Virus record (IMG/VR): IMGVR_UViG_3300002138_000032
Location: 1 to 35,417 of that record
From: a virus
Direction: 5' to 3' (one strand)
Length of the DNA: 35,417 nt
Position numbers and translations under genes: made by a program. This document shows, piece after piece, positions 6,593 to 26,395 of this stretch. Positions within the stretch are counted from its first letter, which is position 1. Every line of letters starts with the position of its first letter. The notes below the pieces were generated by a model. That model made no database searches. It saw only the letters and a list, made by a program, of their open reading frames with translations, and was not told the DNA's origin.

Positions 6593-7786
6593 ATGGCTCT
6601 TACACTCTACGAAAACGAATTGCTGGCCACAGTGCTGGACAAGTTCAAAGTCCAATTCCCGATGTTGTCGGCATTTACGACCGACTTCGGGAACGGTGGC
6701 GTCGTCTTGAATCAGACGAAAACCGCTCGCGTCCGCAAGGCAGCGACAGTGCGCGACTATGACGGAACGACCGGCTACGCCGCGAACGCCGCCGCCACGT
6801 CCGCTCTTCTGGAAGACGTGCCGGTCACGATGAATCGTCACAAGCACGTTCCGGTCGTCATCGACCACATCGACCAGGCTGGTTCAACCCTCAACCTCAT
6901 GGAAGAAGCGGCGGCTGAGATCGCGTTCGACCTTGGAAAAGAGGCCGTTGATTACGTCCTTTCGCTCTGTCGCGGCTCGAACTTCTCGCAAAGCAGCGAA
7001 TACACCGAGTCAAACTCGGATCTGGACGCGACCGAGAACATTCGCGGCGATCTCAACGCGATTGGAGCCCGCCAAACTGGGCGTTTCGGCATTGTTAATA
7101 CCGGCGTCGCTTTGTCGCTCGGGGTTGATTCTCGCGTCGCGAGCCGCGACTTCCACGGCATCCTGAATGGCAGTAATGCTTTCCGGGGATTTGCCAACGT
7201 CAGCGGATTCGACAATATCTGGGAATATCCCAGCCTTCCGGATAACAACCTGTCGAGCGTCACGTTTACGGCAGTCGCCGCGACGGAGGTTATTACTACC
7301 GCTACCGCTCACGGATTATCCATCGGCGATCGCGTCCAAGTATCATCGACCACAACGCTCCCGGCTGGACTGAGCGCATCGACCGACTATTTCGTGATCA
7401 CGGTGCCGTCGACGACTACGATGACCATCTCCGCAACTGACGGCGGCAGCGTCGTCAACATCACCGACACCGGCACCGGCACGCACTCGATGGTTGGATG
7501 GGAAAACCTTTCCGGGTTCTTCGGCACCAAGGAATCCATCATCCTCGTCGCTGACATTCCTCGCAGCTTGTCCAATCCTGATCCGGCGCTTGCGAACGTC
7601 GTCGATATCGAAACGATGACCGACCCTGACACCGGATTGACTATCGCGATGCTCACATGGGCAGCGGTTGGCCTGATGGACGTCTACAAGACCTGCACAT
7701 GGATCTACGGAGCCAAAGCAGGCCGCCAAGGCGGAGCTGCTGGAGTCATGACTGACTACGCAGGACATCGCCTCGTCGATCTCTAA
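6593..7786 (+). CDS. Major capsid protein with inserted HGL/GTGTHT module
   Basis: This 397-residue protein occupies the major capsid position after the protease and has the clearest Shine-Dalgarno of the head region (AAGGA at 6581-6585, seven bases before ATG). The N-terminal part (TLYENELLATVLDKF) and the motifs AEIAFDLGKEAVDYVL and ADIPRSLSNPDPALANVVDI fit HK97-fold capsid proteins of the P22/coat-like or gp5-like groups. Residues about 223-300 are an extra domain shared with four tail proteins of this phage (see repeat entries); it is placed between YPSLPDNNLSS and WENLSGFFGTKES, so the capsid fold resumes after it. It is probably displayed on the capsid surface. A strong hairpin follows the stop. 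Confidence 0.85.
   Translation: MALTLYENELLATVLDKFKVQFPMLSAFTTDFGNGGVVLNQTKTARVRKAATVRDYDGTTGYAANAAATSALLEDVPVTMNRHKHVPVVIDHIDQAGSTLNLMEEAAAEIAFDLGKEAVDYVLSLCRGSNFSQSSEYTESNSDLDATENIRGDLNAIGARQTGRFGIVNTGVALSLGVDSRVASRDFHGILNGSNAFRGFANVSGFDNIWEYPSLPDNNLSSVTFTAVAATEVITTATAHGLSIGDRVQVSSTTTLPAGLSASTDYFVITVPSTTTMTISATDGGSVVNITDTGTGTHSMVGWENLSGFFGTKESIILVADIPRSLSNPDPALANVVDIETMTDPDTGLTIAMLTWAAVGLMDVYKTCTWIYGAKAGRQGGAAGVMTDYAGHRLVDL
7259..7492 (+). repeat. HGL/GTGTHT module copy 1 (capsid)
   Basis: Residues 223-300 of the capsid protein: TATAHGLSIGDRVQV, LPAGLSASTDYFV, TISATDGGSVVNI and TDTGTGTHS. This is one of the most complete copies of the family and serves as the reference pattern for the others. 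Confidence 0.8.
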
Positions 7787-7802
7787 TTTCGTTGTTGCTC
7801 GT

Positions 7803-7840
7803 GAGGGAGGCTGAGTTTGTGGGATTTCTCAGCCTCCCTC
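7803..7840 (+). terminator. Strong hairpin after capsid gene
   Basis: A perfect 13-bp stem, GAGGGAGGCTGAG (7803-7815) and CTCAGCCTCCCTC (7828-7840), with a 12-base loop, follows the capsid stop by 17 bases. Only three T residues follow, so it may be a partial terminator or an RNA 3' end stabiliser that sets capsid expression above downstream genes. Confidence 0.7.
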
Positions 7841-7866
7841 TTTACCACCCCAACTGAAAAAAACAG

Positions 7867-8136
7867 ATGATTAAAGCAATAACGATAGGCTATCCAGATC
7901 CGAAGTGTAAAGACACGCACAAGATCCTCTACTCCGGCAACGACAAGGGCCAGGCGCGAGCGGTGGCTGAAGCGGCTACCGATATGGCGGTCGTCGAGGT
8001 TATTTACCCGACCGCATACATCAAGCGGATCGCTCATGCGCAACCAGTCGCCAAGGCTGAGGTGGCGGTAGAAGAAGAGGCTGAAGAACCAGCCGAAGAA
8101 AAACGCGGACGCGGACGCCCGAAGAAGTCAGACTAA
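7867..8136 (+). CDS. Small acidic protein with basic AT-hook-like tail
   Basis: This 89-residue protein has a folded N-terminal part (MIKAITIGYPDPKCKDTHKI), then an alanine/glutamate-rich linker (VAVEEEAEEPAEEKRGRGRP) ending in an RGRGRPKK tail, which resembles an AT-hook. Its place after the capsid and before the head-tail connector suggests a minor head or DNA-facing protein, but no family is recognised. Its stop overlaps the next ATG (TAATG). Confidence 0.65.
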   Translation: MIKAITIGYPDPKCKDTHKILYSGNDKGQARAVAEAATDMAVVEVIYPTAYIKRIAHAQPVAKAEVAVEEEAEEPAEEKRGRGRPKKSD

Positions 8137-8720
8137 TGTTTATTTCATCCGTCAGAACCGTAGCGCCGTCAGAGGCCGCTGTCTCGCTCGCCGATATGAA
8201 GGATTTCCTTTATATCAGCGACTCGGACAGCGACGCTCTGATTACGGCGCACATCGCGACGGCGGAGAAATGGCTGGAGGACGTGGCCGGGCTGGCGCTG
8301 CTCACTCAGACGCGCCGGGCAAGCTACGAATGCCTGGGCGACGATCGGGTATTAATTCTGCCGCGCCCGCCGTTGCAGAGCGTCACAACGCTGGAATATC
8401 TCGATCTCAACGCGACATGGCAAACGCTATCTAGCGGGCTCTACGATTTGCAAATCGACCGTCAACCTGCTCGATTGCAGATCCGAAGCGGATCAGTCCC
8501 GAGCGTGCATTCGACGATCGCGATGCGCTGGCGCGTTACCTACGTGGCCGGATTCGCCGATACAGCGGCAGATCTCAAGACGGCAGAACCGACGCTCGTC
8601 CAGCTCGTCCAGTGCATGGTCAAGGATATCGATGAGGGATGCGGCCTCGATGACAGCAAGTCCGCCAAGGCGATCCTCAAACTGTATCGAATCCAACCCG
8701 TATCACTAGACGCGGCATGA
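8136..8720 (+). CDS. Head-tail connector protein, gp6/phiE125 gp8-like
   Basis: This 194-residue protein shows the pattern of HK97 gp6-like connectors: SLADMKDFLYISDSDSDALI, AHIATAEKWLEDVAG, a central YDLQIDRQPARLQI and the typical WRVTYVAGFADTAADL segment before helical AEPTLVQLVQCMVKDI. These proteins form the ring that joins portal to the tail completion proteins. It overlaps the next gene by four bases (ATGA), as expected in a connector operon. Confidence 0.8.
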   Translation: MFISSVRTVAPSEAAVSLADMKDFLYISDSDSDALITAHIATAEKWLEDVAGLALLTQTRRASYECLGDDRVLILPRPPLQSVTTLEYLDLNATWQTLSSGLYDLQIDRQPARLQIRSGSVPSVHSTIAMRWRVTYVAGFADTAADLKTAEPTLVQLVQCMVKDIDEGCGLDDSKSAKAILKLYRIQPVSLDAA

Positions 8721-9055
8721 GTGCAATCTGCGAGCCATTAGTCAGAGCCAAGATCGTGATCGAGATCCCGAGCGACGAAGGCACGGGGCCGGAGGACGTG
8801 ACGACATGGGCGGCAGTCGGCGAGCCCTGGGCGGAGATCGAACACAAAGACGGCGACGAAGATCAGGCGGCAGATCAGCAATACGCACGCGGCAATACAG
8901 TTTTCAAGATTCGCTACTCGAACGCATACGCGGAAGTGAACGCCCGGCATCGCATCCGCTTCGATGGCGACACTTACGACATTCTCGACTTTCAAAAGGT
9001 TCCGGCCATTCGGGCGCGGCAACTCAAAATAACAGCGAAAACACGCAGAGACTAA
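8717..9055 (+). CDS. Head closure / head-tail adaptor protein
   Basis: This 112-residue protein has the compact beta pattern of SPP1 gp16 / HK97 gp7-type head closure proteins: TTWAAVGEPWAEIE, NTVFKIRYSNAYAEVNARHRI, FDGDTYDILDFQKV and a final LKITAKTR. It seals the connector after packaging. Position right after the gp6-like gene agrees. The start overlaps the previous stop. Confidence 0.8.
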   Translation: MSAICEPLVRAKIVIEIPSDEGTGPEDVTTWAAVGEPWAEIEHKDGDEDQAADQQYARGNTVFKIRYSNAYAEVNARHRIRFDGDTYDILDFQKVPAIRARQLKITAKTRRD

Positions 9056-9056
9056 C

Positions 9057-9482
9057 ATGGCAACATTATCACAGACAGCAACAAGCGTTCTCAAATCAAG
9101 CAGCGCATCCGTCCAGACGGGCGAAGGCATCGCTGGCGGAACGATCACAGCAGGAATGCCGATCTACATCGACACGGCAGCTTCGAACGTATTAAAAGCG
9201 GCAACCGGAGCCTCTGCCGTCCTCGCCGACGTTTGCGGCATCGCACTCAATGGCGGAGCGATCGGCCAGACGATCGAATATGTCACTCGCGACCCGGCGC
9301 TCGTGATTGGCGCGACGGTTGCGGTCGGAACTACCTACGTTCTCGCTTTGGCTGGCGGAGTTTGTCCGGACGCTGACATCACCACTGGAGGGTTTAAGAC
9401 CGTCCTGGGGCCAGCTACCACTACCACCACAATCAACTTCTCAGTCGGTTCTCGCATGCAAGCCGGAGTTGCTCACGCCTAA
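9057..9482 (+). CDS. Putative capsid decoration-type protein
   Basis: This 141-residue protein is nearly free of aromatic residues and rich in Ala, Gly and Thr. It contains the pattern GTITAGMPIYIDTAASNVLKA, ADVCGIALNGGAIGQTIEY, VIGATVAVGTTYVLA. This resembles small trimeric decoration or DUF2190-like proteins that turn capsid-bound beta barrels. Those genes normally lie next to the capsid gene, whereas this one sits among connectors, so the assignment is tentative. A minor tail component is an alternative. Confidence 0.5.
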   Translation: MATLSQTATSVLKSSSASVQTGEGIAGGTITAGMPIYIDTAASNVLKAATGASAVLADVCGIALNGGAIGQTIEYVTRDPALVIGATVAVGTTYVLALAGGVCPDADITTGGFKTVLGPATTTTTINFSVGSRMQAGVAHA

Positions 9483-9902
9483 ATGATCAAGGTTAAGCTC
9501 AACACGACGCAGTGGAAAAAGATCGGCACCAAGCTCGATCGGATGGCCTCGCGTGCTGAGAAGGCTGGTAACGCGGCAGCGATTAATAAGGCGGCAACTC
9601 CGATGCTGGCGGCGGCAAAGCAAGGCGCTCCGGTCAGGACTGGCAAGCTCAAGAAGTCGCTAGTCAAGCGAGTCAAGCGAGTGGGCGGAGTCGTCGTCGG
9701 CAAGATCGGAATCAAGCCGAAAACCTACGGCAATAGGATTCTCCACCTACTGGAATTCGGAACCAGTAAGATGAGAGCGCATCCATTCCTTCGCCCGGCC
9801 TACTACCAGACCCGCGACGAAGCGAAAGCGATCTACAAGCGCGAGATCTGGGCAGACATCCAAAAGCACGTCCGTAAGGAGCGGGAGAAAGCAGGCATCT
9901 AA
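9483..9902 (+). CDS. HK97 gp10-like tail completion protein
   Basis: This 139-residue basic protein has the gp10 hallmark motifs: AAKQGAPVRTGKLKKSL early and HLLEFGTSKMRAHPFLRPAY late. The PVRTGxLkxS and EFGTskmxAhPFLrPA pair is diagnostic. Family members act at the neck or tail end during head-tail joining. It starts directly at the preceding stop and overlaps the next gene (TAATG). Confidence 0.88.
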   Translation: MIKVKLNTTQWKKIGTKLDRMASRAEKAGNAAAINKAATPMLAAAKQGAPVRTGKLKKSLVKRVKRVGGVVVGKIGIKPKTYGNRILHLLEFGTSKMRAHPFLRPAYYQTRDEAKAIYKREIWADIQKHVRKEREKAGI

Positions 9903-10315
9903 TGGCGACGATCGCAACAGCTCAAATCCTAACCGATCTGCACGCGGAAATCCTCTCGGATTCCGGTGTGACGGCTCTCATCGGGACGCGGCTCCGCTAC
10001 GGCAAGGCGCGACAGAAAGAGGCTATGCCTTACGTCGTCTATCAGATCCTGACAAAGATCCCAACGCTCACGCACGATGGCGATGCCAGCCACGCTCAGA
10101 TGCCGATGCAATTCGACGTTTGGGCAGCGACTCACTACCAGGCAACGCAAGTCGCCGACGCTCTGGAGTCGAAGCTCGTAGGAATCAAAACAAGTCGCGG
10201 ATCTACGGGGATTCAATTCGGCAATCTTGATCGGGCATTCACAGCATTCGACGACGAAACGGAATTTTGCCGATTCAGCGGAGACTTCAATTTCTTCTTC
10301 GGCATCGCCAGTTAA
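9902..10315 (+). CDS. Tail terminator protein, DUF3168-like
   Basis: This 137-residue protein contains MPYVVYQILTKIPTLTHDG, MQFDVWAATHYQATQVADAL and a C-terminal FCRFSGDFNFFF strand, the pattern of DUF3168 tail terminators (lambda gpU position). It would cap the tail tube. After it, the expected major tail protein is delayed by about 2.5 kb of non-canonical genes. Confidence 0.82.
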   Translation: MATIATAQILTDLHAEILSDSGVTALIGTRLRYGKARQKEAMPYVVYQILTKIPTLTHDGDASHAQMPMQFDVWAATHYQATQVADALESKLVGIKTSRGSTGIQFGNLDRAFTAFDDETEFCRFSGDFNFFFGIAS

Positions 10316-10335
10316 ATACTCAAAAAAAATAAGAC

Positions 10336-10602: not shown

Positions 10603-10721
10603 TGCTCGCTCTTACACTATCACTAAACGCCATCACATTTGGAGGATTTGGATGGAAAGTGGACGGAGAGGGGCATTACATCCTCGATGGAGAAGGAAAT
10701 AAAATCGCGATTGCAACCTGA
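10599..10721 (+). CDS. 40-residue protein coupled to the preceding gene
   Basis: This short gene (MMLALTLSLNAITFGGFGWK, then VDGEGHYILDGEGNKIAIAT) overlaps the stop of the preceding gene as ATGA and ends one base before the ATG of the signal-peptide fibre gene. The tight packing and the sensible sequence, with glycine-rich beta-turn repeats DGEGHYILDGEGN, support it as real. Function is unknown. A second ATG directly follows the first, so the start could be 10602. Confidence 0.6.
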   Translation: MMLALTLSLNAITFGGFGWKVDGEGHYILDGEGNKIAIAT

Positions 10722-10722
10722 T

Positions 10723-12408
10723 ATGAAAAATCTCTTACTATTATGCCTGGTGTTTACAGGATCGTGCATTGCACAGGACACCGCTGTTAACTCTGCTACG
10801 CACGATCACGCAAGTGCTGCCGAGTGGTTCGAGAGGAACACTGTCACGGTTAATAAAGCCGCTGGAAACTTCTCAGGGCTACTCTATGACTACACGCTGA
10901 CCAGTGCGCCGGGAACGGATAACAGGCTGATTGATTTCATTGTAGACTCCACATCTGTTTTTCGCGTGAATGAAGATGGGCAATTAACTTTGGTGAATGG
11001 AGTAATGACTGGCCAGTCCCTTGCTGGCTCTGCCAGCAACTCTGTCCTAGACCTAGCAACAACGTGGAGCACGACGGGCACGCCAACGGCACTGAAGCTC
11101 AATGTCACTGACACGGCGAGTAATGCGAGTAGTCTGCTCATGGACTTGCAGGTTGGGGGAACGAGTAAGTTTAAGGTTACTAAGAGCGGCGCAGTCACAG
11201 TAGCCAATATCGATGTAGCAGGCGACGTGGCTGTTAAGAACGGCACCAGTGCAGTTGAGCAGACGATCTACAACACCTACACTGACGCCAGTAACTACGA
11301 AGGGTTAGAGATCGGATTTAAGGACACGGTGAACGTCGCAACGATCAAGACGACTGGCAGCGGAACTGGAGCGGTGACTCCGAGGGCGTTGCGGTTGGAG
11401 TCGCAGGGTGCAAGATTTCTCCACCAGACTGGTGCAACTACCAACTTATTTGCTGGAGATAGATCAGGGAATTACGCAGTATCTGGCTCAAACAATACAG
11501 GGGCAGGTTATAACACGCTCGCCTCGGCAACTTCAGGGGTTTTAAATTCAGCATTCGGGTCAGGCGCTTTAGACGCTGAAACAACCGGATCATACAATAC
11601 AGCGGTTGGGGGAGGTTCTCTTGGGGGACAAAATGGGGCAACCTACAACACTGCGGTGGGGCGAGGCGCAGGATTGCTGCTAAGCACAAGCTCGTATAAT
11701 ACGATTATCGGCGGACTGGCTCTGGACGCAGAAACTACAGGAAGTTATAATACTGCGGTAGGTTGGGGTGTTTTCACCGACCAAAATGGCGGTAATTACA
11801 ATGATGGATTTGGTTACAACGTAGGAGCAAGCATCTCGACAGGGACAAACAATGCCGCGTTTGGGTCTTACTCTATCGACGCAGAAACGACTGGGGTGGG
11901 TAATAGCGCATTCGGATATCAGGTGCTGACTAAGCAAAATGGAGCATCAGGCAATGCCGCGTTTGGGCGAGGAAGTGGCAGCGAAGTGACCACTGGGTCA
12001 AATAATTCGCTATTTGGGTCATATGCCGGAGATAATTTAACTTCAGGCTCATCCAATATCATCCTCGGCTACAACATCGACGCCCAATCCGCCACAGCCT
12101 CCGGCCAGATCAGCATCGGCAACCTGATCTTTGGAACGGATGTTGGCACAGGGACGACTGCGAGCACGGGGAACGTAGGAATCGGCGTCGTCGCACCAGC
12201 GAACAAACTCTCAGTAGACGGCACGATTAAATCCAAAACCTACACGGTCGCCACTCTCCCTGATGCCGCTACGGTGGGCGCAGGCGCAACGGCATTTGTT
12301 TCTGACGGCTCAGTCGTCCACGCTGGTAACAGCGGAACCGTAGTCGCTGGATCTGGCGCGAATTTCGTCCCCGTCTACAGCGACGGGACAGACTGGAGGA
12401 TCCAATAA
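10723..12408 (+). CDS. Signal-peptide fibre/adhesin with 51-residue repeats
   Basis: From ATG 10723 the 561-residue product begins with a Sec-type signal peptide (MKNLLLLCLVFTGSCIAQD). The next part (TLTSAPGTDNRLIDFIVDST, GTPTALKLNVTDTASNASS) matches repeats common in phage fibre shafts. The middle has YadA-head-like units (SYNTAVG, NYNDGFG, NNAAFG) organised in a 51-residue superrepeat present three times. The C-terminus (TLPDAATVGAGATAFVSDGS ... VPVYSDGTDWRI) is a frequent fibre tip motif. A cleavable signal peptide is odd for a virion protein assembled in the cytoplasm. It could be a secreted adhesin carried as a moron or a fibre with an unusual route. The frame stays open to ATG 10639, but that covers the 40-residue gene. 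Confidence 0.75.
   Translation: MKNLLLLCLVFTGSCIAQDTAVNSATHDHASAAEWFERNTVTVNKAAGNFSGLLYDYTLTSAPGTDNRLIDFIVDSTSVFRVNEDGQLTLVNGVMTGQSLAGSASNSVLDLATTWSTTGTPTALKLNVTDTASNASSLLMDLQVGGTSKFKVTKSGAVTVANIDVAGDVAVKNGTSAVEQTIYNTYTDASNYEGLEIGFKDTVNVATIKTTGSGTGAVTPRALRLESQGARFLHQTGATTNLFAGDRSGNYAVSGSNNTGAGYNTLASATSGVLNSAFGSGALDAETTGSYNTAVGGGSLGGQNGATYNTAVGRGAGLLLSTSSYNTIIGGLALDAETTGSYNTAVGWGVFTDQNGGNYNDGFGYNVGASISTGTNNAAFGSYSIDAETTGVGNSAFGYQVLTKQNGASGNAAFGRGSGSEVTTGSNNSLFGSYAGDNLTSGSSNIILGYNIDAQSATASGQISIGNLIFGTDVGTGTTASTGNVGIGVVAPANKLSVDGTIKSKTYTVATLPDAATVGAGATAFVSDGSVVHAGNSGTVVAGSGANFVPVYSDGTDWRIQ
11566..12024 (+). repeat. Three tandem 153-bp units in the fibre gene
   Basis: Each unit starts with (A/S)(L/I)DAETTG and spans exactly 51 codons: starts at 11566, 11719 and 11872. 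Within each unit three NxAxG/NTAVG-type short repeats recur, separated by QNG. The units are diverged at DNA level, so they are old or under selection rather than a recent expansion. Confidence 0.75.
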
Positions 12409-12445
12409 TCTAACTCAGCATCTTATCTCTCTGTCTCGCACAAAC

Positions 12446-12865
12446 ATGAAATCAAAACTCAAAATCACCACATGGGCGCTCTGCGCATTCACATTCTGTT
12501 GCGTCGGAACCTGGCTGGCTGCTCAGTCGCCAATTCCAGCAAAAGCGGAGCTCGTGAAACCAGCTGTGCCAGAGAAGCGATTTCCAGCTTACTGGGTTCG
12601 CAACTTCCAGGCTCGTGCCTCATCGCCGACCGAGGGGACTTATTACCTTGAGTTGATCCCGTATAATCCTGAGACTGGTGAGCTGGATCATTCAGCGCCG
12701 AAGGAATTCAGTGGCAGTCTGTGGGAATTGACCAGCGAAGTTCCGGAAGCCGCGCAGGCAATGAGCGCTGTGTTTATCGCTGTGCCCGCAATCGAGAAAT
12801 GGATTGACGATAAGGCAGCAGCTGCAGCCGCAGCAGACGAAGCCGAAGCAGCCGAACCTAGATAA
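12446..12865 (+). CDS. Secreted or membrane-anchored small protein
   Basis: This 139-residue protein starts with a signal peptide or signal anchor (KITTWALCAFTFCCVGTWLA, then AQ). The mature part has PAYWVRNFQARASSPTEGTY and an alanine/glutamate-rich helical C-terminus. It contains two Cys in the hydrophobic stretch but no clear lipobox. I do not recognise it. It sits 38 bases after the signal-peptide fibre gene and 24 bases before the tail tube gene, so the two exported proteins are probably partners. Confidence 0.6.
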   Translation: MKSKLKITTWALCAFTFCCVGTWLAAQSPIPAKAELVKPAVPEKRFPAYWVRNFQARASSPTEGTYYLELIPYNPETGELDHSAPKEFSGSLWELTSEVPEAAQAMSAVFIAVPAIEKWIDDKAAAAAAADEAEAAEPR

Positions 12866-12888
12866 TCTAACATTAACAGAAATAAAAC

Positions 12889-13296: not shown

Positions 13297-13320
13297 TTTC
13301 CTCGCCACCACAGCCAGGCC

Positions 13321-13350
13321 AGCGGGGCACCTGGTTAAAAACGCCCCGCT
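13321..13350 (+). terminator. Hairpin after tail tube gene
   Basis: AGCGGGGC (13321-13328) and GCCCCGCT (13343-13350) form a perfect 8-bp stem with a 14-base loop, 24 bases past the tail tube stop. No T run follows, so it is more likely an mRNA end stabiliser or attenuator than a full terminator. It parallels the hairpin after the capsid gene. Confidence 0.5.
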
Positions 13351-13359
13351 TCAATCTGT

Positions 13360-16846: not shown

Positions 16847-16849
16847 CAC

Positions 16850-19800
16850 ATGTTTACTCTACGACTCAAACTAGACTCCAGACTGCGAGAAGATCCGCTC
16901 GGGTTTTCCGACGGGCTGTTTTTCCACAACGGCGACGACCTGCGCTTTGAGCTTGGGCTTTTCCGCGACGGCGTAGTGGTCGATGATCTCACGCAGGTAG
17001 CCGTGCAACTCAAGAGCGCCAACGCAACGTCTGAGGATGCGGCGTGGTTTATCGAATACGACGAGAGCCCGTCGGCGGCGCTGACAGCTGCAACGTGGAA
17101 GGCTGGCGCGGCGGAGACGGCAACGGTTGACGTGGCGGCTATTGATACCAGCATTCCATCAGGTAATTATTTACTGACAATCTCGGCGACGACTAACAGC
17201 AGCAAGCATGAAACGTTTTATGCCGGACGCGTAATTGTGTCTGAATCCGGCTACGGGACATCGACAATCGACAATCCAGGTGCTCTGCTTTATTATGATG
17301 CGACTACGTCCGACGCCAGATACGTGCTTCGATCTGAAGTCGAGTTTATCTCGGTGCATGACAGGGCCACTTTAGATGCAGCCAACGCAAGTGAGGGGGC
17401 GGCTATATTAATAGTTGACACCATAGAGGTGACTACGGATTTAACAATTTCCGCAGATAAGAAAGTGGCAGTTTCGCCAAGCGGATCATTCGCGATTACC
17501 ACCGGCAAACTCACATTCCACGCAACGCCGGTTGGATGGGGAAGTGGCCAATGGGTATTTCATGGTAACAGCACCTCTAACGGGTACTCGACTCTAGGGA
17601 CAGGACTAACTCTTCCAAGGGGACGCAACAGCGCCACCCCAGGAGACGTGGAGGGCACGTTTGGATCTGTCCCACGCAGGCCAGAGTGGTTCGGAGCAGT
17701 CAAAGGACTCTCCACTTTCGACAACACTGATTCCATCGCTTCCGCCTTCAAGGCATCCGAGTGGACAGCATTCGCTCAGGCCGGTTACGATGACACTCAG
17801 AAGAACGCCTACACTCATGTAGTGTTCGGCACAGGCATCTACTACCACTCCCGGACTATCGACATCCTCGGATGCCAGTTCAACGCCACAGGAGAGGGGC
17901 GCTCAGGGTCAATCATCGAGGCATTCGCAACCTTCGACTACGCCAACTCGACTCCAGATGTGGTGGACTACCCACAAACATCATGGGTCAATGTCACAGC
18001 TGATGCCGCAACAGACACATTCACATCACCAGGGCACACCTTCTCAGACGGGGAGATGGTATGGATTCAGACGACAGGAACAGCTCTCCCCGCAGGACTG
18101 ACTCCACAGACCAATTACTGGGTGGTGGGGACAAGTCATGTCAACGGAACGCTGCAACTGAGCGCAACGGAAGGTGGTTCGGCAATCAACTTCACAAGCG
18201 CAGGCACCCTGACCGCAGCTGAGTCCCACCAGATCCGCCGCAAAATGTCCGTCTACTCTCAACTGCTATTCGGTGGTTGGGGAGGCGTCAATACTCAAGG
18301 CACACAGGCAGCACAACTGGGCTCCTTCGACAATCACTTCCGATTCCTCTACTTTAGGGCATCGTCGATGGCGGAATACTCGACATGCATTTTCGCACCG
18401 CACTACATCCAGGAAAACACAGAGATCGAGAACTGTTTATTTGGCGGGGGCACCGTAGCGCAGATCCTCCTCGGAGCGCGGGACCGGACTCAGCCAGACT
18501 GGTTCACGTCCAACGGTGTCAGGATCTCCCAGTGCGAGCTCTTCTCGATGGTTCGCACCGGCAAAGTGGTGATCGGATCTAACCTGCGATCAATCTCAGG
18601 CAGGTTCCTCGATGTCTCCAACTGCACGTGCATCGGAAGGGCCGATACTGCGTCATACACTGCGGCTTGCACCGTCTCAGGAGCAGTCCTAACAAGCGCA
18701 GATCATGGACTCTCCAATGGAGATCCAGTCTACCTGACCACCTCTGGCGCAATGTCTGGACTGGCCGCCAACACCATTTACTACGTGGTCAAGGCAACCG
18801 CCGATACCTTCTGCCTCTCGACTCGGATCAATGACACCAACTACATCGTGACGGATACGGGCAGCACTGGAGTGTCGTGGAACACATCAGCCGCCTGCCT
18901 GTCTTCAATCGACACGTCAAACCAGATCACCACAATCCGCGACACCCACATGGAGTCAGGAGTAGTCGGTATCCTCGTCAGCGACTCACTGGCAGGTGCT
19001 GTTAATACTGCCGCAACCGGAGGATCAGGAGGCTACAACGTCAACTTCGGAAAACTCAGCGCATGGCCACAAACCCCATACGGCACTCACCTGACAGTGC
19101 AGAACGTAGACTTCACCAACGATGTCGAAGAGGCTGCACTCAAACTCAACTACGACTCACAACGCGCGTCCGTCCACGTCGTCAACCTGTTCGCACAATA
19201 CAACATCGGACTAGGAACCTCTGCTCCACTGCTCCTGTGGGACGCTCCACGGGGCAGATCCAGCCACGGCATAGGCACTACCAACAAACGTCGCATCGTT
19301 GAATACTCCAGAGGATACAGCAGCGAGAATGCCAGTCCAGACGGAGTAACCGAGGGATACTACGTTAGCACTGCCCATGTCGATCTCATGGAGCCGCCCG
19401 TCTATAACGATCCCGAGCTTTTCGTAGGGCAACCCTACGTCGCATCAGGCGGATCAGTCAATATCAGCCTGGGGGCAAACCCAGCACTCCTCAACTCAAT
19501 CAGAGACTGTTGGGGATTGGCCGATCTAACGAACGAGGAAGCAGGGGCAGCGGGGAGTCTGACTAACATCGGCACAGTCATCTTCAGTGAAGATGGATCA
19601 GACGCGCCTACCAACACAGGACTCTACGCAGGAGGTGCGGGCGCAGAATTACTGCAAGACTCGAAACACCTCTACGCAACCGCAGGAGCAGCTCTCAACT
19701 ACGGGGACATCACCGGCGCCAACGAAGACTACGGCACATCATTCGCCTTCTCTGTCTGGTGCAAAATTCCAACGCTCGCCACAAGCGGCGCAAACAACAC

Positions 19801-20479
19801 TATCTGGAGTCGATCAGGTGCAGGAGTAGTAGCATCCACCTCTGTAGCATGGTCAACAGGGATCAAGATAGACGCTACAGCACACCCATTCAGCAACGGT
19901 CAAATCGTCAGAGTCAGCGGCACTGTGATTGCTCCATTCTTAGACACTACCCCATATGTGGTAGCTAATAAAGCAACCGACAACTTCGAGCTAACCGAGC
20001 TCGACGGCACTGCCGTCAGCGGAACCTACGGCGCATTCACCGCAGCAACTGTCGAGCTTATGTCAGGTTACGAAATGCTCTACAGCGGTGACAATTCGGA
20101 GATGATTTTTACGTTCAAACATCCTGGGGCAGAATTCGAAGCGTACTACGCCAACCCATTGGTAGATCCAATAGCAGGAGAGTGGACGTTCTACTACGGG
20201 GAATACAACGCTCAAAGCCGCGCCATCACTCTCCACAACGTCACTGGCAATAGCCGCAAAACTGTAACAGCGGTGGACGGGACGGGTACATTCACTGGAT
20301 TTAAACCTCTGATAGATGACTCCGTCCCACTCTACATCGGCACTCGCAAGAGCGATGGAGCATCCGATGGACTCTGCATGGTCGATGAACTCACGTTCTA
20401 CAACCGCATCCTCACGTTGGAGGAAGTCGCCTGGATTCACAATTGGGGGTCAGGAAGATCCTACTCTGAACACATCTAA
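16850..20479 (+). CDS. Large tail fibre with beta-helix, LamG-like domain and three modules
   Basis: The 1209-residue protein starts with a phage-attachment type domain (residues 1-155, FFHNGDDLRFELGLFRDGVV, ending LLYYDATTSDARYVLRSEVE). Residues about 160-860 have the repetitive strand pattern of a right-handed beta-helix (DTIEVTTDLTISADKKVAVS; SNCTCIG). Three copies of the HGL/GTGTHT module are at residues 379-462, 602-680 and 993-1071. The C-terminal 330 residues look like a concanavalin/LamG-type domain (SFAFSVWCKIPT ... VDELTFYNRILTLEEVAWIH), and the third module is inserted inside it. It is a likely receptor-binding or depolymerising fibre; catalytic residues are not evident. Codon choice in the middle looks different from that of the neighbours. 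Confidence 0.8.
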   Translation: MFTLRLKLDSRLREDPLGFSDGLFFHNGDDLRFELGLFRDGVVVDDLTQVAVQLKSANATSEDAAWFIEYDESPSAALTAATWKAGAAETATVDVAAIDTSIPSGNYLLTISATTNSSKHETFYAGRVIVSESGYGTSTIDNPGALLYYDATTSDARYVLRSEVEFISVHDRATLDAANASEGAAILIVDTIEVTTDLTISADKKVAVSPSGSFAITTGKLTFHATPVGWGSGQWVFHGNSTSNGYSTLGTGLTLPRGRNSATPGDVEGTFGSVPRRPEWFGAVKGLSTFDNTDSIASAFKASEWTAFAQAGYDDTQKNAYTHVVFGTGIYYHSRTIDILGCQFNATGEGRSGSIIEAFATFDYANSTPDVVDYPQTSWVNVTADAATDTFTSPGHTFSDGEMVWIQTTGTALPAGLTPQTNYWVVGTSHVNGTLQLSATEGGSAINFTSAGTLTAAESHQIRRKMSVYSQLLFGGWGGVNTQGTQAAQLGSFDNHFRFLYFRASSMAEYSTCIFAPHYIQENTEIENCLFGGGTVAQILLGARDRTQPDWFTSNGVRISQCELFSMVRTGKVVIGSNLRSISGRFLDVSNCTCIGRADTASYTAACTVSGAVLTSADHGLSNGDPVYLTTSGAMSGLAANTIYYVVKATADTFCLSTRINDTNYIVTDTGSTGVSWNTSAACLSSIDTSNQITTIRDTHMESGVVGILVSDSLAGAVNTAATGGSGGYNVNFGKLSAWPQTPYGTHLTVQNVDFTNDVEEAALKLNYDSQRASVHVVNLFAQYNIGLGTSAPLLLWDAPRGRSSHGIGTTNKRRIVEYSRGYSSENASPDGVTEGYYVSTAHVDLMEPPVYNDPELFVGQPYVASGGSVNISLGANPALLNSIRDCWGLADLTNEEAGAAGSLTNIGTVIFSEDGSDAPTNTGLYAGGAGAELLQDSKHLYATAGAALNYGDITGANEDYGTSFAFSVWCKIPTLATSGANNTIWSRSGAGVVASTSVAWSTGIKIDATAHPFSNGQIVRVSGTVIAPFLDTTPYVVANKATDNFELTELDGTAVSGTYGAFTAATVELMSGYEMLYSGDNSEMIFTFKHPGAEFEAYYANPLVDPIAGEWTFYYGEYNAQSRAITLHNVTGNSRKTVTAVDGTGTFTGFKPLIDDSVPLYIGTRKSDGASDGLCMVDELTFYNRILTLEEVAWIHNWGSGRSYSEHI
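17984..18235 (+). repeat. HGL/GTGTHT module copy 2 (fibre)
   Basis: GHTFSDGEMVWIQTTGTALP, AGLTPQTNYWVV, LQLSATEGGSAINF. The final GTGTHT is degenerate (TLTAAESHQI). Confidence 0.7.
18653..18889 (+). repeat. HGL/GTGTHT module copy 3 (fibre)
   Basis: DHGLSNGDPVYLTTSGAMSG, LAANTIYYVVKATADTFCLS, then TDTGSTGVSW. Close to the pattern except that LPAGL is MSGLA. Confidence 0.75.
19826..20062 (+). repeat. HGL/GTGTHT module copy 4 (fibre)
   Basis: AHPFSNGQIVRVSG, DTTPYVVANKATDNFELTEL, DGTAVSGTYGAFT. It is the most diverged fibre copy and interrupts a LamG-like domain. Confidence 0.6.
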
Positions 20480-21547
20480 ATGCCACTCGACTTTCCATCC
20501 ATCGGACTTTCCGAGATTCACTGGGCTCCATCGTCAGTCGTGGCGCTGCACCAGTCGCCCGTGACGTATGCTCAACAGGCCTATCGATGGCCAGGGCAGA
20601 TGCTCGCGTTCTCGGCCAAGCTGCCGCCAATGACGATGGATCAGGCCCGCGAGGTTCAGGCTTTTTTCCTGAGATGCAACGGCCCGGAAAATACGTTCTA
20701 CTTTCAGGATACTCCGCCCGGGCGCGAGCAGCTCGGGAACGCCAAGGCGGGCGGGATGATCGATAACGAATTGCAGGAATTTACGGCGGCGACTACGGAC
20801 ATTTGCACAGCGACCGCCCACGGATATGTGACTGGTGATCGTGTCAGGGTTCTCACGTCATCGATACTCCCTGCAGGGCTCGCGATCTCGACGGATTACT
20901 ACGTCCGCAAGATCAACGACGATACGTTTTATCTCTCCGAGCAGCTCGGCAGCGGTCAATCGTTTACATCCGTCGCCGCTACGGACATCATCACCAGCGC
21001 CGGGCACAATCGGCGCAATGGGGACATCGTTTATTTATTCGGGACGCTGGCAACGGGTTTAACGGCGAATACAGCCTACTACGTAATATCGCGGACAACC
21101 GACACATTCAAAGTCTCGACAACTCGCGGCGGGGCGGCGGTAAACATTTCAGCCGACGACGGCAGCGGGATGACGTGGAACACAACTCCCATCGTGGACA
21201 TCACCAGCACGGGCACGGGAACGCACACGATCGGCATCCGTCAAATAGGCGAGGCGGTCAACACTCGCGGATGGATTCCAGACGTGATCGACCTGTTTAA
21301 GGCTGGCGATTGGATCAGTATTAACGATCGATTGCGGCGCGTCACGGTGGACGTGGACAGCGACGCATCCGGTAAGGCAACATTGATCGTCTGGCCGCGC
21401 ATTAACGAGGCTTTCGATGACGGCACAGAGATCGACATAGGCGACGATGCGCGAGGCATATTCCGGCTATCATCAATCCCATCATGGACGCGGGACGTTT
21501 CGCGCCTCATCGTCGATCAGGAATTCTCAGCTTTTGAAGCTCTCTAA
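20480..21547 (+). CDS. Distal tail protein with nested module insertion
   Basis: The N-terminal 90 residues (VVALHQSPVTYAQQAYRWPG, LPPMTMDQAREVQAFFLRCN, ENTFYFQD) and the C-terminal 100 residues (RGWIPDVIDLFKAGDWISIN, LIVWPRINEAFDDGT, GIFRLSS) together make a distal-tail-type protein: the gW...llkaGDwI.i and WPrl..a..dG motifs are common to that group. Residues 98-252 are an insertion built of HGL/GTGTHT modules, placed just before the RGW strand. Within it one copy seems to sit inside another. The protein would link the tube to the tip complex. The 355-residue length is explained by the insertion. Confidence 0.78.
   Translation: MPLDFPSIGLSEIHWAPSSVVALHQSPVTYAQQAYRWPGQMLAFSAKLPPMTMDQAREVQAFFLRCNGPENTFYFQDTPPGREQLGNAKAGGMIDNELQEFTAATTDICTATAHGYVTGDRVRVLTSSILPAGLAISTDYYVRKINDDTFYLSEQLGSGQSFTSVAATDIITSAGHNRRNGDIVYLFGTLATGLTANTAYYVISRTTDTFKVSTTRGGAAVNISADDGSGMTWNTTPIVDITSTGTGTHTIGIRQIGEAVNTRGWIPDVIDLFKAGDWISINDRLRRVTVDVDSDASGKATLIVWPRINEAFDDGTEIDIGDDARGIFRLSSIPSWTRDVSRLIVDQEFSAFEAL
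20771..21235 (+). repeat. HGL/GTGTHT module copy 5, outer (distal tail)
   Basis: Residues 98-160 supply the start (TATAHGYVTGDRVRV, LPAGLAISTDYYV, DTFYLSEQLGSGQ) and residues 237-252 supply the missing end (PIVDITSTGTGTHTIG). The two halves are separated by copy 6. Confidence 0.7.
20960..21187 (+). repeat. HGL/GTGTHT module copy 6, nested (distal tail)
   Basis: Residues 161-236: SAGHNRRNGDIVYLFGTLAT, GLTANTAYYVISRTTDTFKV, GGAAVNISADDGSGMTW. It starts with the same FTSVAATDIIT lead-in (compare FTAVAATEVIT in the capsid copy), indicating a full module inserted into copy 5. Confidence 0.7.
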
Positions 21548-23766
21548 TGGATTACTACGTTTCACCAACCGGAACTGGAGTCGGCACCTACGCCGATCCG
21601 GGAGCGTGGAAATCCGCCATTACGGGAGGTCGGACGAACCTGCCTGGTGATCGGATCATTTTTAAGACCGGCACTTACACTGACAAAAAAGCCGGGACTC
21701 CGTGGAATAAAAAGGTGGTGATCAGCGGCGTGGTGGGAACGGCGATCGCTCCGATTTACATCATGGGCGAGGATGGCGGGCATGTTATTCTTGATCTGTT
21801 TTTTGACGTAAATAGTGGAGCGTCGGGAAGCGCCTATATCAATTTCACTGGCCTGCATTTCAAAGATCTCGACGCTAAGATTGACCCGACAACGATTTCC
21901 GAAGACTCGGCACCATCGGAGCTTGCGGACTGGGGGACGGGGATAACGCTTGGGGACGCTCCGAACTGCAAAATCTATCATTGCGTCATCGAGGGCGGAG
22001 GTCAGGCGCTCAGCGCGTTCCAGAGCGCGGACAACGCTTACATCGGCTGGAATGTCGTATTTAATTACGGATGGTATAACGATACTGGAGCCACCAGGCG
22101 ATCGCACGGTCATGGAATTTATTTGGCCAACGGTACGCCGGACGGGACAAAAACGGCGGAGTTTAATATCTTCGGGCCGGGCTACTACGCGAGCGAGCAT
22201 GCCGGGCACTACGGGATGCACTACTTTTCGACGACGGATAAAATACAGTCGATCGAAACGGTTTCCAATATCGCTTATGGTGGCGTTATTGTCGCTTCCT
22301 ACGATTTCCCGGAAGACGATATCACGATGGACGATTGCTGGATTACGTCGCCGCTCGTCGGCGAAACGTCCAGCTATGATGGCAATGGGGTAGCGTTCGG
22401 ATACGCGAATCCAAAGGTTTTCACGACCGCCTACGCGACCGACGCAAACCAGATTAATTTCGCCGGGAGCGGATTCAGCGACGGTCACGTCGTAACGGTT
22501 TACACAGACGGCGCACTGCCTGCGCCGCTGGTATCTGGAGGAACTTACTACGTCGTCAATGAGGGATCGGGCACGGTAGAACTATCGCTGACTGCTGGTG
22601 GTTCTCCCATCGTCCTGACATCGGATGGCACCGGCAATCACACGATGGCTAAGCAGAGCTTGGTTGGATCGTTCGTGGACAACAAGCTTTTCCACTGCGT
22701 CCTGCGCGCCACAAACGGAATCTGGTACGCGCTCACAACATCAGGCGTCACGATCTACAAAACGCTCGCCGACTGGTGGAGCACTGACGAGGGCGTCACT
22801 CCGGCGCTCCAATTTAACGAGGTCGCCACGTTCTCGGACGTCTCGGGCGGTGGCGGCACCGACCTGTCACGAATCGACATTAGTCCATACGATACGGACT
22901 ATGCACATGTCTCGATTGCGGATTTGGATCTTGATGGATCGGTGAACGTCTCAACCGTCGTCGATACGTTCCTGACCACGGGAGATTCCTACGAGGTCTA
23001 CCATTTCCGCGACATTTTCAGCACTACAGTAGCGTCCGGCACCTGGGCGGGATCTTTGACGCTCTCGGTAATTGAGACGCTCGGAGTCGATGACGGCGCA
23101 ACTATTACGTCAGATCAGAGCCCTATTGATTCGTTCGTGGTTCGCAGGGTTACGGCTGGCGGAGGCGGAGGCGGAGGCGGCGGAGGCGGAGGCGGCGGAG
23201 CGATCAGCGGTCAACGCGAAATGTCGGACGGTTTGCTCTCAGCAACGCAGGCCGGGACGGTAGCTCCGATCCTGCTTTACTCTGCAAGCTTCCCAGATAT
23301 CGAGGTTTTTGGCTGGACGGGCTACGGACAATTGTCCTGGGCAAACCAGACATGGACTGGCTACGGCGATCTCATCATGATTGATCCGGTGCAGGAGAGC
23401 ACGGACAGCGCGGCGGACTCGCTCTCGTTTACCATGTCGGGACTGGAGGGCGAATACTATACCGCGATCTTGCTGGGCGATTATCATGGGCGAGCGGCGA
23501 AAGTATGGGTTGGCGCTCTCGATTTGACGACGGGGCAACTCGTAGATGATCCGTATCTGCTATTCTCGGGCGTGCTGGATTCCGACGCGATCAAAGACAG
23601 CGGCGACAGCGCAACACTTAGGATGACGCTTATCAACGACGTGAGCGACCAATTGCGCGCTCGGAGCTGGCAGTATACGCACGAGGATCAGCAGAGCCTT
23701 TATCCCGGAGTCGTTGACAACGGACTCGAATTTGTGGCAGCATTGCAAGACGTGGAAATAGGATGA
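21547..23766 (+). CDS. Beta-helix minor tail protein with poly-Gly linker
   Basis: This 739-residue protein joins three parts. Residues 1-290 are a right-handed parallel beta-helix as in pectate lyases and tailspikes (YYVSPTGTGVGTYADPGAWK, GDRIIFKTGTY, INFTGLHFKDLD, NCKIYHCVIEGGG). Residues 291-367 are an HGL/GTGTHT module. After more beta-rich sequence comes a run of 14 glycines at 23158-23199. The last 185 residues (LLYSASFPDIEVFGWTGYGQ, LLGDYHGRAAKVWVG, LFSGVLDSDAIKDSGDSATL) match a widespread minor tail protein that precedes the NlpC-like gene. In many phages that last domain is a separate gene, so this is a fusion. It could give the tip a polysaccharide-binding or degrading arm. Confidence 0.75.
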   Translation: MDYYVSPTGTGVGTYADPGAWKSAITGGRTNLPGDRIIFKTGTYTDKKAGTPWNKKVVISGVVGTAIAPIYIMGEDGGHVILDLFFDVNSGASGSAYINFTGLHFKDLDAKIDPTTISEDSAPSELADWGTGITLGDAPNCKIYHCVIEGGGQALSAFQSADNAYIGWNVVFNYGWYNDTGATRRSHGHGIYLANGTPDGTKTAEFNIFGPGYYASEHAGHYGMHYFSTTDKIQSIETVSNIAYGGVIVASYDFPEDDITMDDCWITSPLVGETSSYDGNGVAFGYANPKVFTTAYATDANQINFAGSGFSDGHVVTVYTDGALPAPLVSGGTYYVVNEGSGTVELSLTAGGSPIVLTSDGTGNHTMAKQSLVGSFVDNKLFHCVLRATNGIWYALTTSGVTIYKTLADWWSTDEGVTPALQFNEVATFSDVSGGGGTDLSRIDISPYDTDYAHVSIADLDLDGSVNVSTVVDTFLTTGDSYEVYHFRDIFSTTVASGTWAGSLTLSVIETLGVDDGATITSDQSPIDSFVVRRVTAGGGGGGGGGGGGGGAISGQREMSDGLLSATQAGTVAPILLYSASFPDIEVFGWTGYGQLSWANQTWTGYGDLIMIDPVQESTDSAADSLSFTMSGLEGEYYTAILLGDYHGRAAKVWVGALDLTTGQLVDDPYLLFSGVLDSDAIKDSGDSATLRMTLINDVSDQLRARSWQYTHEDQQSLYPGVVDNGLEFVAALQDVEIG
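22417..22647 (+). repeat. HGL/GTGTHT module copy 7 (beta-helix tail protein)
   Basis: GSGFSDGHVVTVYTDGALPA, GGTYYVVNEGSGTVELSLTA, GGSPIVLTSDGTGNHT. Complete copy with the terminal GTGNHT. Confidence 0.75.
23158..23199 (+). repeat. Poly-glycine codon run
   Basis: Fourteen consecutive GGA/GGC codons form a flexible linker between the beta-rich N-terminal part and the conserved minor tail domain. The alternating trinucleotides make it a likely site of length variation by slippage. Confidence 0.8.
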
Positions 23767-24176
23767 CGACCGAACAAAGACATCGAGGCGAATTATTCAT
23801 AGCTAGCCGAATGGACACGCCGTTCGAGTGGGGCGTGCATGACTGCGGCCTGTTCGTCGCGGACTTCATCTTCGAGACCACGGGCATCGATTATGCCGCG
23901 GACATCCGATATAAATACTCCGATCAGGCAGGAGCGGTTAAGGCTTTTCAAGAAATTTCATGCGCCGGAGTCACCGGCTATCTCCGGCGCAAGGCTTCCA
24001 TCCATCAATGGGAGTCGGTCACTCCCGAAACCGCTCGATGGGGTGACGTTGGAATTTTACGCAATGGCAGGGATTCGGCTTGCATCTGCATCGGGGCGGA
24101 AGTTATCGCCGCCGGACAGGATCGGCTGATTACTAAACCGAGGTCGATGGCTTCGCATCTTTGGAGGGCGATCTAA
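23763..24176 (+). CDS. NlpC/P60-like tail protein (DUF6950-type)
   Basis: This 137-residue protein starts near the motif FEWGVHDCGLFVADFI, with C28 the presumed nucleophile, and later has RWGDVGILRNGRDSACICIG. It matches the small NlpC/P60-like proteins found between the minor tail protein and the tip protein, comparable to the peptidase part of lambda gpK. It may cleave peptidoglycan during entry. The His expected in the second motif is not apparent, so activity is uncertain. It overlaps the upstream gene by four bases. Confidence 0.75.
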   Translation: MTTEQRHRGELFIASRMDTPFEWGVHDCGLFVADFIFETTGIDYAADIRYKYSDQAGAVKAFQEISCAGVTGYLRRKASIHQWESVTPETARWGDVGILRNGRDSACICIGAEVIAAGQDRLITKPRSMASHLWRAI

Positions 24177-26395
24177 TGGCTGGTGCTCTTGTCGCACTTG
24201 GCGGGGCTCTTTGGACGGGAGGAGGACTCACCGCTCTCGGTGGGGCAGTTGCATCGACTACCATATCGCTAGGAATCTCCGCCTACCAAAAGAACAGGCA
24301 AAAGAAAGCCGCTTTAAACGTCGCCAGGCAAGCGAAGAAGGCGCAAGCGAAGGCGCTGAGACGATTACAGCAGCAACAACAGAAGATCAAAGCGTCGAAT
24401 TTTGAAGTCCCATTTTTAAGCCAGGCGGACAACACGCTGATGATTCGCAATCCGATCGCGTCGCGGCGGATGGTTTACGGGAGGACTCGTATTGGCGGGG
24501 TCTGGGTCTTTTACGAAAAAACCGGCGCGTCTGGCGAATATCGGCATCTCATTCTCGCTCTCAGCGAGGGGCCATGCGAGGAGATCGAGGGCATCTATTT
24601 CGATGATACGCTCGTCACGCTCGGCGCTGATGGCAACGCAACCGGAACCTATGCCGGATACGCTCGCGTGATGAAGCATCTCGGCGATGCCGTTGCCAGC
24701 GAGATCACCGGGACGTTCACGTGGGCGAGCGGCGCGACTCTCGATTGCGTGGCGCATGGACTGAGCGACGGCGATCATGTGAGGCTGGCAACATACGCAG
24801 GGACGGGACTGGCAACGTCCACTTCTTACATTGTCCTCAACAAAACAGATGACACATTCCAACTCGCTTTATACGCGACACCAACATCGGCGATCACGGC
24901 ATCGGCTGGCGGCACATTTCAGCGATACATCGCCGACGGTTACGCCGTTTCCGAGTGCGCCAACTGGACTGAGACGCATCGGCTCAATGGCATCTGTTAC
25001 ATCTACGTCCGCCTAAAAAACAATCTCGATCTGTTCCCGAACGTCATTCCGCAAATCTCGGTCGTAATGAAGGGCAAGGCTGACATCGAAGATCCGCGAA
25101 CCGGGACGGCATCATACTCGACAAACTCAGCGCTCTGCCTCTCGCATTATTTACAGGAGCCGATTTTAGGGCCAGGCATCGACACCTACGATATTCACCC
25201 GGACGAATTGATCAACGCGGCGAACACCTGCGACGAAAACGTATTGACGGCGACGAGCGCAAGCTTCACGTCAACCTTTGCGAGTGATCTGATTACCAGC
25301 GCCGGGCACGGACTGGCGGACAGCAACATCCTATTTCTGATGGGCTCGGATTTGCCCGATCCGCTGGCGGCGGATACCGCGTATTATGTTATCGACGCAA
25401 CGACCGACACGTTCAAGCTTTCGGAGGATCTCGGGGGGACGGCCGTGACGTTGACCGACGACGGCACGCCAACGCACACGTGGCGACTCTCGGAAAAACG
25501 CTACGCGACTAACGGAGTCTTGCAGCTCGCCAACGACGTGGAGGACAACCGCAACGCTCTTGCTTCGCCAATGGGAGGGACGGCGGTCTACACTAACGGA
25601 TACTGGGTGATCTCAGCGGCAGAGTATTTTACGCCAATATTCCTGGTCGATGAGGATATGATCGTTGGCGAGATCGAGCTTCGGAATGAAATCCCAAGGC
25701 GCGACCGATTCAATTTAATAAAAGGCACCTACGTGGCCGAGGAGAACAACTGGCAAACGTTCGGATTCCCAGCGGTGACGAACGCGCAATATCTCGCGGA
25801 CGATGGCGGCAAAACGATCATGCAGGAGGTGCAGTTTCCGTTTACGACATCACCAGCGACGGCGCAGCGGATCGCAAAGCTGACGCTCGAACGTAGTCGG
25901 CGAGGGGTATCGTTGCAGCTCAATTGCTCACTGCGAGCGTTTCCGGTTCAGGCTGGCAAGACCTGCCTGGTTTCAATCTCGCGGTATGGATTTGTCCGCA
26001 AGGCTTTTGAGGTGACGTCGACAAGCTTCGCAATCGAGGACGGCAAGCCGACGATCGAAGTCAGCTTACGCGAGACGGACGCGGACATCTACAACTGGGA
26101 CTACTCCGAGGAGGTGGCGGTTAACATTCCGGCCAGCCTAATCAAGCCGGGGACGAAGGTTGCGGACGTGGTGGCTGATCCTACGAGCGGCTACCCTGCG
26201 GACGTCGCGCTGACTACCGCGACAGCAGGAGCGATTATTCGCTACAGCTTCACAGAGTCGCCGTCAACGATTGCCAGCGGCACGGAATACACTGGATTAA
26301 TCACTGTTCCAAGCGATCCTACCACCATATACGCCAGGGCGTTCCTTGCGGGATATCAATCCAGCGACGCATTCAGCGCAACCTATTCAACGTAA
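24176..26395 (+). CDS. Tail tip / host-specificity protein, gpJ-like
   Basis: From ATG 24176 (TAATG overlap) the protein has 739 residues. It begins with a glycine-rich hydrophobic segment (ALVALGGALWTGGGLTALGG) as in gpI/J-type tail hub proteins, followed by a basic QKNRQKKAALNVARQAKKAQ stretch. The central SRRMVYGRTRIGGVWVFYEK and HLILALSEGPCEEIEGIYFD motifs are typical of gpJ-like tip proteins. Two HGL/GTGTHT modules are inserted. The C-terminus (TATAGAIIRYSFTESPSTIA) resembles a chitobiase-like CHB_HEX_C-type beta domain often found in secreted proteins, a guess from the pattern ATxGAxIxYT. It is far shorter than lambda gpJ. Confidence 0.82.
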   Translation: MAGALVALGGALWTGGGLTALGGAVASTTISLGISAYQKNRQKKAALNVARQAKKAQAKALRRLQQQQQKIKASNFEVPFLSQADNTLMIRNPIASRRMVYGRTRIGGVWVFYEKTGASGEYRHLILALSEGPCEEIEGIYFDDTLVTLGADGNATGTYAGYARVMKHLGDAVASEITGTFTWASGATLDCVAHGLSDGDHVRLATYAGTGLATSTSYIVLNKTDDTFQLALYATPTSAITASAGGTFQRYIADGYAVSECANWTETHRLNGICYIYVRLKNNLDLFPNVIPQISVVMKGKADIEDPRTGTASYSTNSALCLSHYLQEPILGPGIDTYDIHPDELINAANTCDENVLTATSASFTSTFASDLITSAGHGLADSNILFLMGSDLPDPLAADTAYYVIDATTDTFKLSEDLGGTAVTLTDDGTPTHTWRLSEKRYATNGVLQLANDVEDNRNALASPMGGTAVYTNGYWVISAAEYFTPIFLVDEDMIVGEIELRNEIPRRDRFNLIKGTYVAEENNWQTFGFPAVTNAQYLADDGGKTIMQEVQFPFTTSPATAQRIAKLTLERSRRGVSLQLNCSLRAFPVQAGKTCLVSISRYGFVRKAFEVTSTSFAIEDGKPTIEVSLRETDADIYNWDYSEEVAVNIPASLIKPGTKVADVVADPTSGYPADVALTTATAGAIIRYSFTESPSTIASGTEYTGLITVPSDPTTIYARAFLAGYQSSDAFSATYST
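24704..24928 (+). repeat. HGL/GTGTHT module copy 8 (tip protein)
   Basis: VAHGLSDGDHVRLATYAGTG, LATSTSYIVLNKTDDTFQLA, then ITASAGGTFQRY. The last strand is degenerate. Confidence 0.7.
25244..25483 (+). repeat. HGL/GTGTHT module copy 9 (tip protein)
   Basis: SAGHGLADSNILFLMGSDLP, DPLAADTAYYVIDATTDTFK, LGGTAVTLTDDGTPTHTW. Complete copy, closest in its start (ASDLITSAGH) to the nested copy 6. Confidence 0.75.

Follow-up and report, generated by a model that had tools for sequence, protein, structure and literature searches.

The Ig-like domains of phages are promiscuous and sit on unrelated virion proteins, where they are thought to bind surface sugars weakly (Fraser et al. 2006, quoted in PMC9230969). 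Roseophage R4C, a marine siphophage, carries several unrelated carbohydrate-binding accessory domains in its Dit (an insertion domain) and its megatron (a CBM) (PMC10276861). One of three polysialic-acid sites of the K1F endosialidase lies in its barrel, and the substitutions S460R, S468D, and G504V alter host discrimination (PMC12632334).

Here, we analyzed a stretch of viral DNA of 35,417 nucleotides (IMG/VR record IMGVR_UViG_3300002138_000032), which is referred to as the window. Nine copies of one module of ~80 residues were found across five virion proteins of this phage, spanning positions 7259 to about 25489. The major capsid protein carries one copy, the fiber three, the distal tail protein two, a beta-helix/tail protein one, and the tip protein two. 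Already known are the fold, its near Pfam neighbors PF12195 and PF16190 (neither of which the window copies reach safely), and the promiscuous habit, which is familiar from Ig-like domains. In a search of the open-access literature, an FCCH/endosialidase-barrel module was not found described as a spread virion domain, nor was the combination of this fold, a capsid carrier, nine copies, and one copy nested in another.

Nine copies of one domain family in five virion proteins

Profiles built from eight copies recovered the ninth in all nine cases with scores of 36.1 to 72.9 bits, whereas shuffled module sequences (2,000 shuffles of each copy) reached at most 16.3 bits. A profile made from other viral contigs only, with the window left out, scored all nine copies at 34.8 to 71.0 bits. 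These results reject chance resemblance, and the nine segments are one domain family. In an iterated search, the profile from other contigs matched the five carriers and no other structural gene of the window. A search of all six frames of the window with the nine-copy profile found no tenth copy, the best other match having an E value of about 0.4. An earlier note on this DNA had described nine modules and had regarded them as a single domain borne on capsid, fiber, distal tail, and tip. Each module was recovered in the same protein and range, the scores among the copies exceeded those of shuffled sequences, and the profile of the nine segments, run against the rest of the window and viral contigs, returned the nine places in the window and many viral carriers.

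Each of the nine copies lies within a single open frame without stops. None of these in-frame copies is appended by programmed frameshifting, which is often used to append Ig-like domains. The conserved positions of the family are H20, G25, D26, V28, G39, Y46, Y47, and V48, and the loops of the module, including the TTxLPAGL loop, are variable.

The carrier genes and modules all lie on the plus strand. The major capsid protein gene (6593..7786, 397 aa; phrog_283 major head protein, E value of 1.4e-8) contains one module at 7259..7495 (leave-one-out score of 62.5 bits), and the whole insert covers about residues 219-303 (about 7247-7501). The large fiber gene (16850..20479, 1,209 aa) was assigned as a fiber from its context and its C-terminal LamG/ConA-like domain (PF13385 on the C-terminal part). 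Its three modules are located at 17981..18235 (copy 1, 53.7 bits), 18653..18892 (copy 2, 49.7 bits), and 19838..20062 (copy 3, within the LamG domain). In copy 3, the weakest of the nine, the HGL motif and the GG motif have been lost, yet this copy is still clear at 36.1 bits. The distal tail protein gene (20480..21547, 355 aa; phrog_1302, E value of 1.4e-21) contains two modules, described below. The gene of the beta-helix-like tail protein (21547..23766, 739 aa), in which the beta-helix itself is weakly supported (E value of 0.2), matches phrog_2048 over residues 557-738 (E value of 3.3e-30) and contains one module at 22411..22650 (50.1 bits). The tip protein gene (24161..26395, 744 aa; phrog_5616, E value of 1e-62, and phrog_31, central tail fiber J) contains modules at 24701..24928 (copy 1, 42.5 bits) and 25256..25489 (copy 2, 71.0 bits).

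Other features of the window were also recorded. The C terminus of the tip protein (24161-26395) matched a chitobiase/beta-hexosaminidase C-terminal domain (PF13290, E value of 2.9e-6). Two proteins encoded between the genes of the head-tail connector and that of the major tail protein (10639-12408 and 12446-12865) have signal-peptide-like N termini and gave no match in a Pfam search; the former contains NTAxG..ETTGSYNTAVG repeats, which recall trimeric adhesin heads. Near the terminase genes, the reading frame at 111-818 contains a stretch (...HAKIILIHYGKNYFVLEGSANLRSN...) resembling phospholipase D-type motifs, and it gave no match in a Pfam search.

Predicted fold of the module

The capsid copy, modeled by AlphaFold2 with an alignment of 100 family members, was predicted to form a small barrel of six strands with a pLDDT of 96.9. 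In a Foldseek search with this model, the top ranks were taken by the endosialidase of phage phi92 and by ubiquitin E1 enzymes. In superpositions by VIA-align 2, where a Z score below 8 can mean merely a common arrangement, the best structural match was the FCCH domain of UBA6/Uba1 (Z of 9.3, rmsd of 2.1, 72 residues), followed by the phi92 endosialidase (Z of 7.8), the tail-tube protein of phage Mystique (residues 105-177, Z of 7.2), residues 425-506 of the K1F endosialidase (Z of 6.9), and the K1 lyase (7w1c, residues 141-229, Z of 6.2). Barrels resembling it also appear in structures of tail tubes and of head-tail interfaces (9n71, 9jlf, and 9l0f). The likeness to the endosialidase barrel holds despite Z scores below 8, because the sequences agree with it. 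PF12195 (End_beta_barrel) matched 37 of the 100 family members (best E value of 8.4e-5), PF16190 (E1_FCCH) matched 12 of them at E values up to 0.1 (best, 1e-6), and residues 436-494 of the K1F endosialidase aligned directly with the module through the HGL..GD.V motif. In the window, PF12195 matched two copies (best E value of 0.01), and PF16190 matched none of the nine at E values up to 5.

Profiles of the Ig family (Big_2, I-set, and FN3) gave no match to the window copies; only Ig_7 matched, in one copy (E value of 0.047). Two PDB sequence matches were set aside, BurrH for its many sub-significant repeats and neocarzinostatin as a partial match. A library of predicted viral proteins gave 35 matches that reached an E value of 0.001. 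Many of these were unnamed phage proteins, and the named ones were mostly of tail-fiber or tailspike types.

Distal-tail copy 2, modeled within its own protein, showed the same fold neighbors as the capsid copy (FCCH Z of 7.5, again below 8). In the full distal-tail model, which had a mean pLDDT of 52, the nested copy alone was confident, with block means of 74 to 93. Two of the nine copies were thus modeled, and the other seven were assigned by profile homology. The module is predicted to be a self-folding domain, a small beta-barrel of the E1-FCCH/endosialidase-barrel fold. The earlier note had suggested an E1 FCCH-like label and a fold other than Ig. The label agrees with the PF16190 matches in the family and with the FCCH superposition, and the different fold is supported by the missing Big_2, I-set, and FN3 matches together with the FCCH-type barrel of the model. 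The structure prediction and superposition that it had proposed gave the same fold neighbors for both modeled copies.

Filled and empty insertion sites

The module-free state of several carriers was seen in a sister contig (IMGVR_UViG_3300022214_000030). Its capsid protein, 75% identical to that of the window, lacks the module and reads PSLPGNA joined directly to ENLTGFF at the position of the insert of about 85 residues in the window. The sister phage has two distal-tail proteins, both without modules, and the distal tail protein of the window minus residues 97-252 aligned full-length with both of them, small gaps aside. In the tip protein of the sister phage, both sites occupied in the window are filled, and a third module of ~85 residues follows DPR at a site that is empty in the window. 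Gain or loss therefore goes both ways, because the capsid and distal-tail sites are empty in the sister phage and the third tip site is empty in the window. Within the capsid family phrog_1328, one member (L017) has a module at residues about 182-254, and Propionibacterium phage B22 is without it (53% identity). When fiber copy 3 was excised in silico, the PF13385 match improved, its score rising from 30.7 to 39.0 bits while its coverage of the profile grew from 44-151 to 15-151. These alignments indicate that the copies are true insertions into carrier proteins and that fiber copy 3 interrupts the LamG domain.

The two distal-tail-like proteins of the sister phage (L009:11967-12626 and L009:13097-14536) are arranged in tandem, and the second has a long C-terminal extension. 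The search for capsid relatives gave the sister contig only among viral contigs and none among bacterial genomes, and a sequence search found no solved structure homologous to the window capsid protein. The sister capsid protein (L009:4974-5909) matched that of Verrucomicrobia phage P8625 weakly (28%, E value of 0.2), which may point to the group of the host.

Arrangement of the distal-tail copies

In the distal tail protein, the first part of copy 1 (20774..20959; 78.5 bits, profile positions 2-60) ends at profile position 60. The complete copy 2 comes next (20960..21190; leave-one-out score of 72.9 bits) and is followed by IVDITSTGTGTHTIG, the missing last strand of copy 1 (21191..21235). 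The rejoined copy 1 scored 71.0 bits, compared with 55.5 bits for the first part alone. As a control, 2,000 other tails were joined to it, namely, 15-mers from the structural proteins of the window with other module tails included, and none reached 71.0 bits. These scores indicate that copy 2 sits inside copy 1, not beside it. The nesting rests on sequence, because the full-length distal-tail model is too poor to display it in three dimensions.

Spread among other phages and origin of the copies

Viral-contig records were picked by a degenerate DNA pattern and then searched with the module profile, which gave at least about 300 copies in at least 126 distinct reading frames. Among the PHROGs carriers in heads were the major head proteins phrog_1328 and phrog_1357 (two further capsid families), a head protein, the head closure protein Hc3, and a head-tail adaptor. 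Carriers in tails and elsewhere were the sheaths phrog_205 and phrog_23, baseplate wedges, phrog_1084, an amidase, and many fibers. A minor tail protein bearing the module also occurs in Microbacterium phages (Eden and Franklin22). With few exceptions, the carriers identified are virion proteins, and those of relatives belong to more than a dozen virion protein families, which makes the parallel previously drawn with scattered Ig-like domains an apt one. The module of a T4-type sheath (L031) aligns to, and replaces, about residues 104-189 of gp18-type sheaths; these residues form the outermost sheath domain in T4. Filled and empty sites indicate that phages gain and lose the module by recombination in many virion proteins.

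Most of the 50 whole records searched, which were mostly chosen by motif and do not give an unbiased rate, have the module in one gene only. The nine copies in five genes of the window are the highest number among them, and the next highest is found in G004 (IMGVR_UViG_3300049926_000016), with six copies in four genes. The latter (locus L157) has the module in the major head protein phrog_1357 and in three more genes, which makes it a second phage with both capsid and other virion proteins decorated.

Pairwise identity among the nine copies was 21-51% (mean, 33%), with nucleotide identity of at most 57%, and the base composition of each copy was like that of its carrier gene. Because of this low identity and carrier-like composition, the copies are considered old, and recent duplication is rejected. 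A tree of 86 modules (83 columns) was poorly resolved. It allowed one clade for the nine copies (AU p of 0.585), the nearest neighbors of the window copies were a mix of modules from the window and from other phages, and either copying within the lineage or repeated import fits the tree. The window contains just two occurrences of AACCTxTC, one at each end of the capsid insert (7247-7254 and 7505-7512). In a test of flanking repeats around the inserts against a null, none was significant at any site, AACCTxTC included. A self-mobile element with target-site duplication is rejected on this ground, and ordinary recombination is taken as the default origin.

Proposed function of the module

The loop-inserted FCCH/endosialidase-type barrel, exchanged by recombination, is most likely an accessory glycan adhesin, a reading to which we give slightly better than even credence. 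We infer surface exposure and adhesion as follows. Exposure is suggested by one case, the module at residues about 104-189 of the gp18-type sheath. The homologous endosialidase barrel, which binds sialic acid, points to weak glycan adhesion as the most likely function. The E1 FCCH domain is not known to bind sugars. In the proposed mechanism, a barrel of ~80 residues would be spliced into a loop of the carrier protein and leave the carrier core undisturbed. The modules on the particle would then make many weak, loop-encoded contacts with glycans of the host surface or the environment, and these contacts would raise the chance and the dwell time of contact before true receptor binding. In the alignment with the K1F endosialidase, S460 and S468 lie in the loop matching the variable TTxLPAGL loop of the module. 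The conserved H20, G25, D26, V28, Y46, and V48 include the HGL..GD.V motif common to the K1F barrel, and no dedicated ligand site is conserved. Because the conserved residues look structural, any ligand would probably be recognized through the variable loops and might not be the same for all copies.

Alternatively, the modules could have a structural role without any ligand, either contacting neighboring subunits and thereby cementing capsid, tail, and tip or serving as spacers. They do occur in proteins that build multicopy lattices, for example, those of capsid and sheath; barrels of this kind are present in the tail-tube and head-tail interface structures listed above, and added sheath domains have been proposed as tail stabilizers (PMC9230969). 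However, in close relatives the same sites of these proteins are empty. In addition, the presence of one domain in unrelated lattices makes a conserved common contact surface improbable, and the loops are variable. We consider a purely structural role unlikely.

Adhesion to glycans also has to be weighed against a near-neutral passenger, that is, a compact, readily folding domain tolerated in loops and spread via easy recombination between copies, without benefit to the phage. Such a domain could flip between presence and absence in both directions among close relatives and could come to lie within another copy, as was found here. Nevertheless, the copies keep frame and a recognizable fold at 21-51% identity, which suggests long purifying selection; the identified carriers are virion proteins almost throughout; and the lack of repeats flanking the inserts does not indicate self-mobility. 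A passenger is therefore improbable. Binding of pili, flagella, or other host surface proteins, as small barrels and Ig domains can do, is very doubtful: the computed FCCH-type fold and the protein context in which the E1 FCCH domain works would fit it, but the close phage fold relatives lie in capsule-degrading enzymes (endosialidases and the K1 lyase).

Beyond the accessory glycan adhesin, we tentatively offer a broader possibility, which we hold at less than even confidence. The FCCH/endosialidase-like barrel could be a second general-purpose, freely exchanged surface module of tailed phages, on a par with Ig-like domains. In some phages, head, tail, and tip would be coated by diverged sugar-binding copies, which would turn the entire particle into a multivalent adhesin, while the domain would also serve as an acceptor for further copies. 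The clean pairs of filled and empty sites provide material for testing what such domains do for the phage.

Comparison with known systems

Ig-like domains are the main known example of promiscuous virion domains, and a second, unrelated fold used on both capsids and tails would suggest that particle decoration follows a general principle. Many phage proteins labeled "hypothetical" or "E1 FCCH" would gain a sensible reading. Annotators should read FCCH labels of phage proteins as a statement about fold and not about ubiquitin biology, and inserts can split and weaken the domain match of the carrier itself, as with LamG in the fiber.

E1_FCCH (PF16190), the first catalytic cysteine half-domain of ubiquitin-activating enzymes, is the best structural match to the module, but the module is carried by capsid, fiber, and tail proteins, outside any ubiquitin or E1 setting. 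End_beta_barrel (PF12195; K1F and phi92) is like the module in its fold (Z of 6.9 to 7.8, below 8), its HGL..GD.V motif, and its being part of a larger virion protein. It occurs in a single type of enzyme, adjacent to a sialidase propeller, whereas the window phage has nine copies of its module on capsid and tail proteins, with a conserved YYV strand motif and without a propeller; profile searches of the window carriers found no sialidase domain. The Rider domain of the K1 lyase (PF24149) shows marginal similarity to the module, with a weak profile match (E value of 0.087) and an overlapping fold (7w1c 141-229, Z of 6.2), but it is part of a capsule lyase. As in R4C, accessory domains are inserted at the distal tail and the tip of the window phage; those of R4C are described as having different folds, whereas the window phage reuses one fold, capsid included. 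Like the phage Ig-like domains (Big_2, I-set, and FN3), the module is promiscuous over many unrelated virion proteins, but it has a different fold and forms in-frame internal insertions, one of them nested in another.
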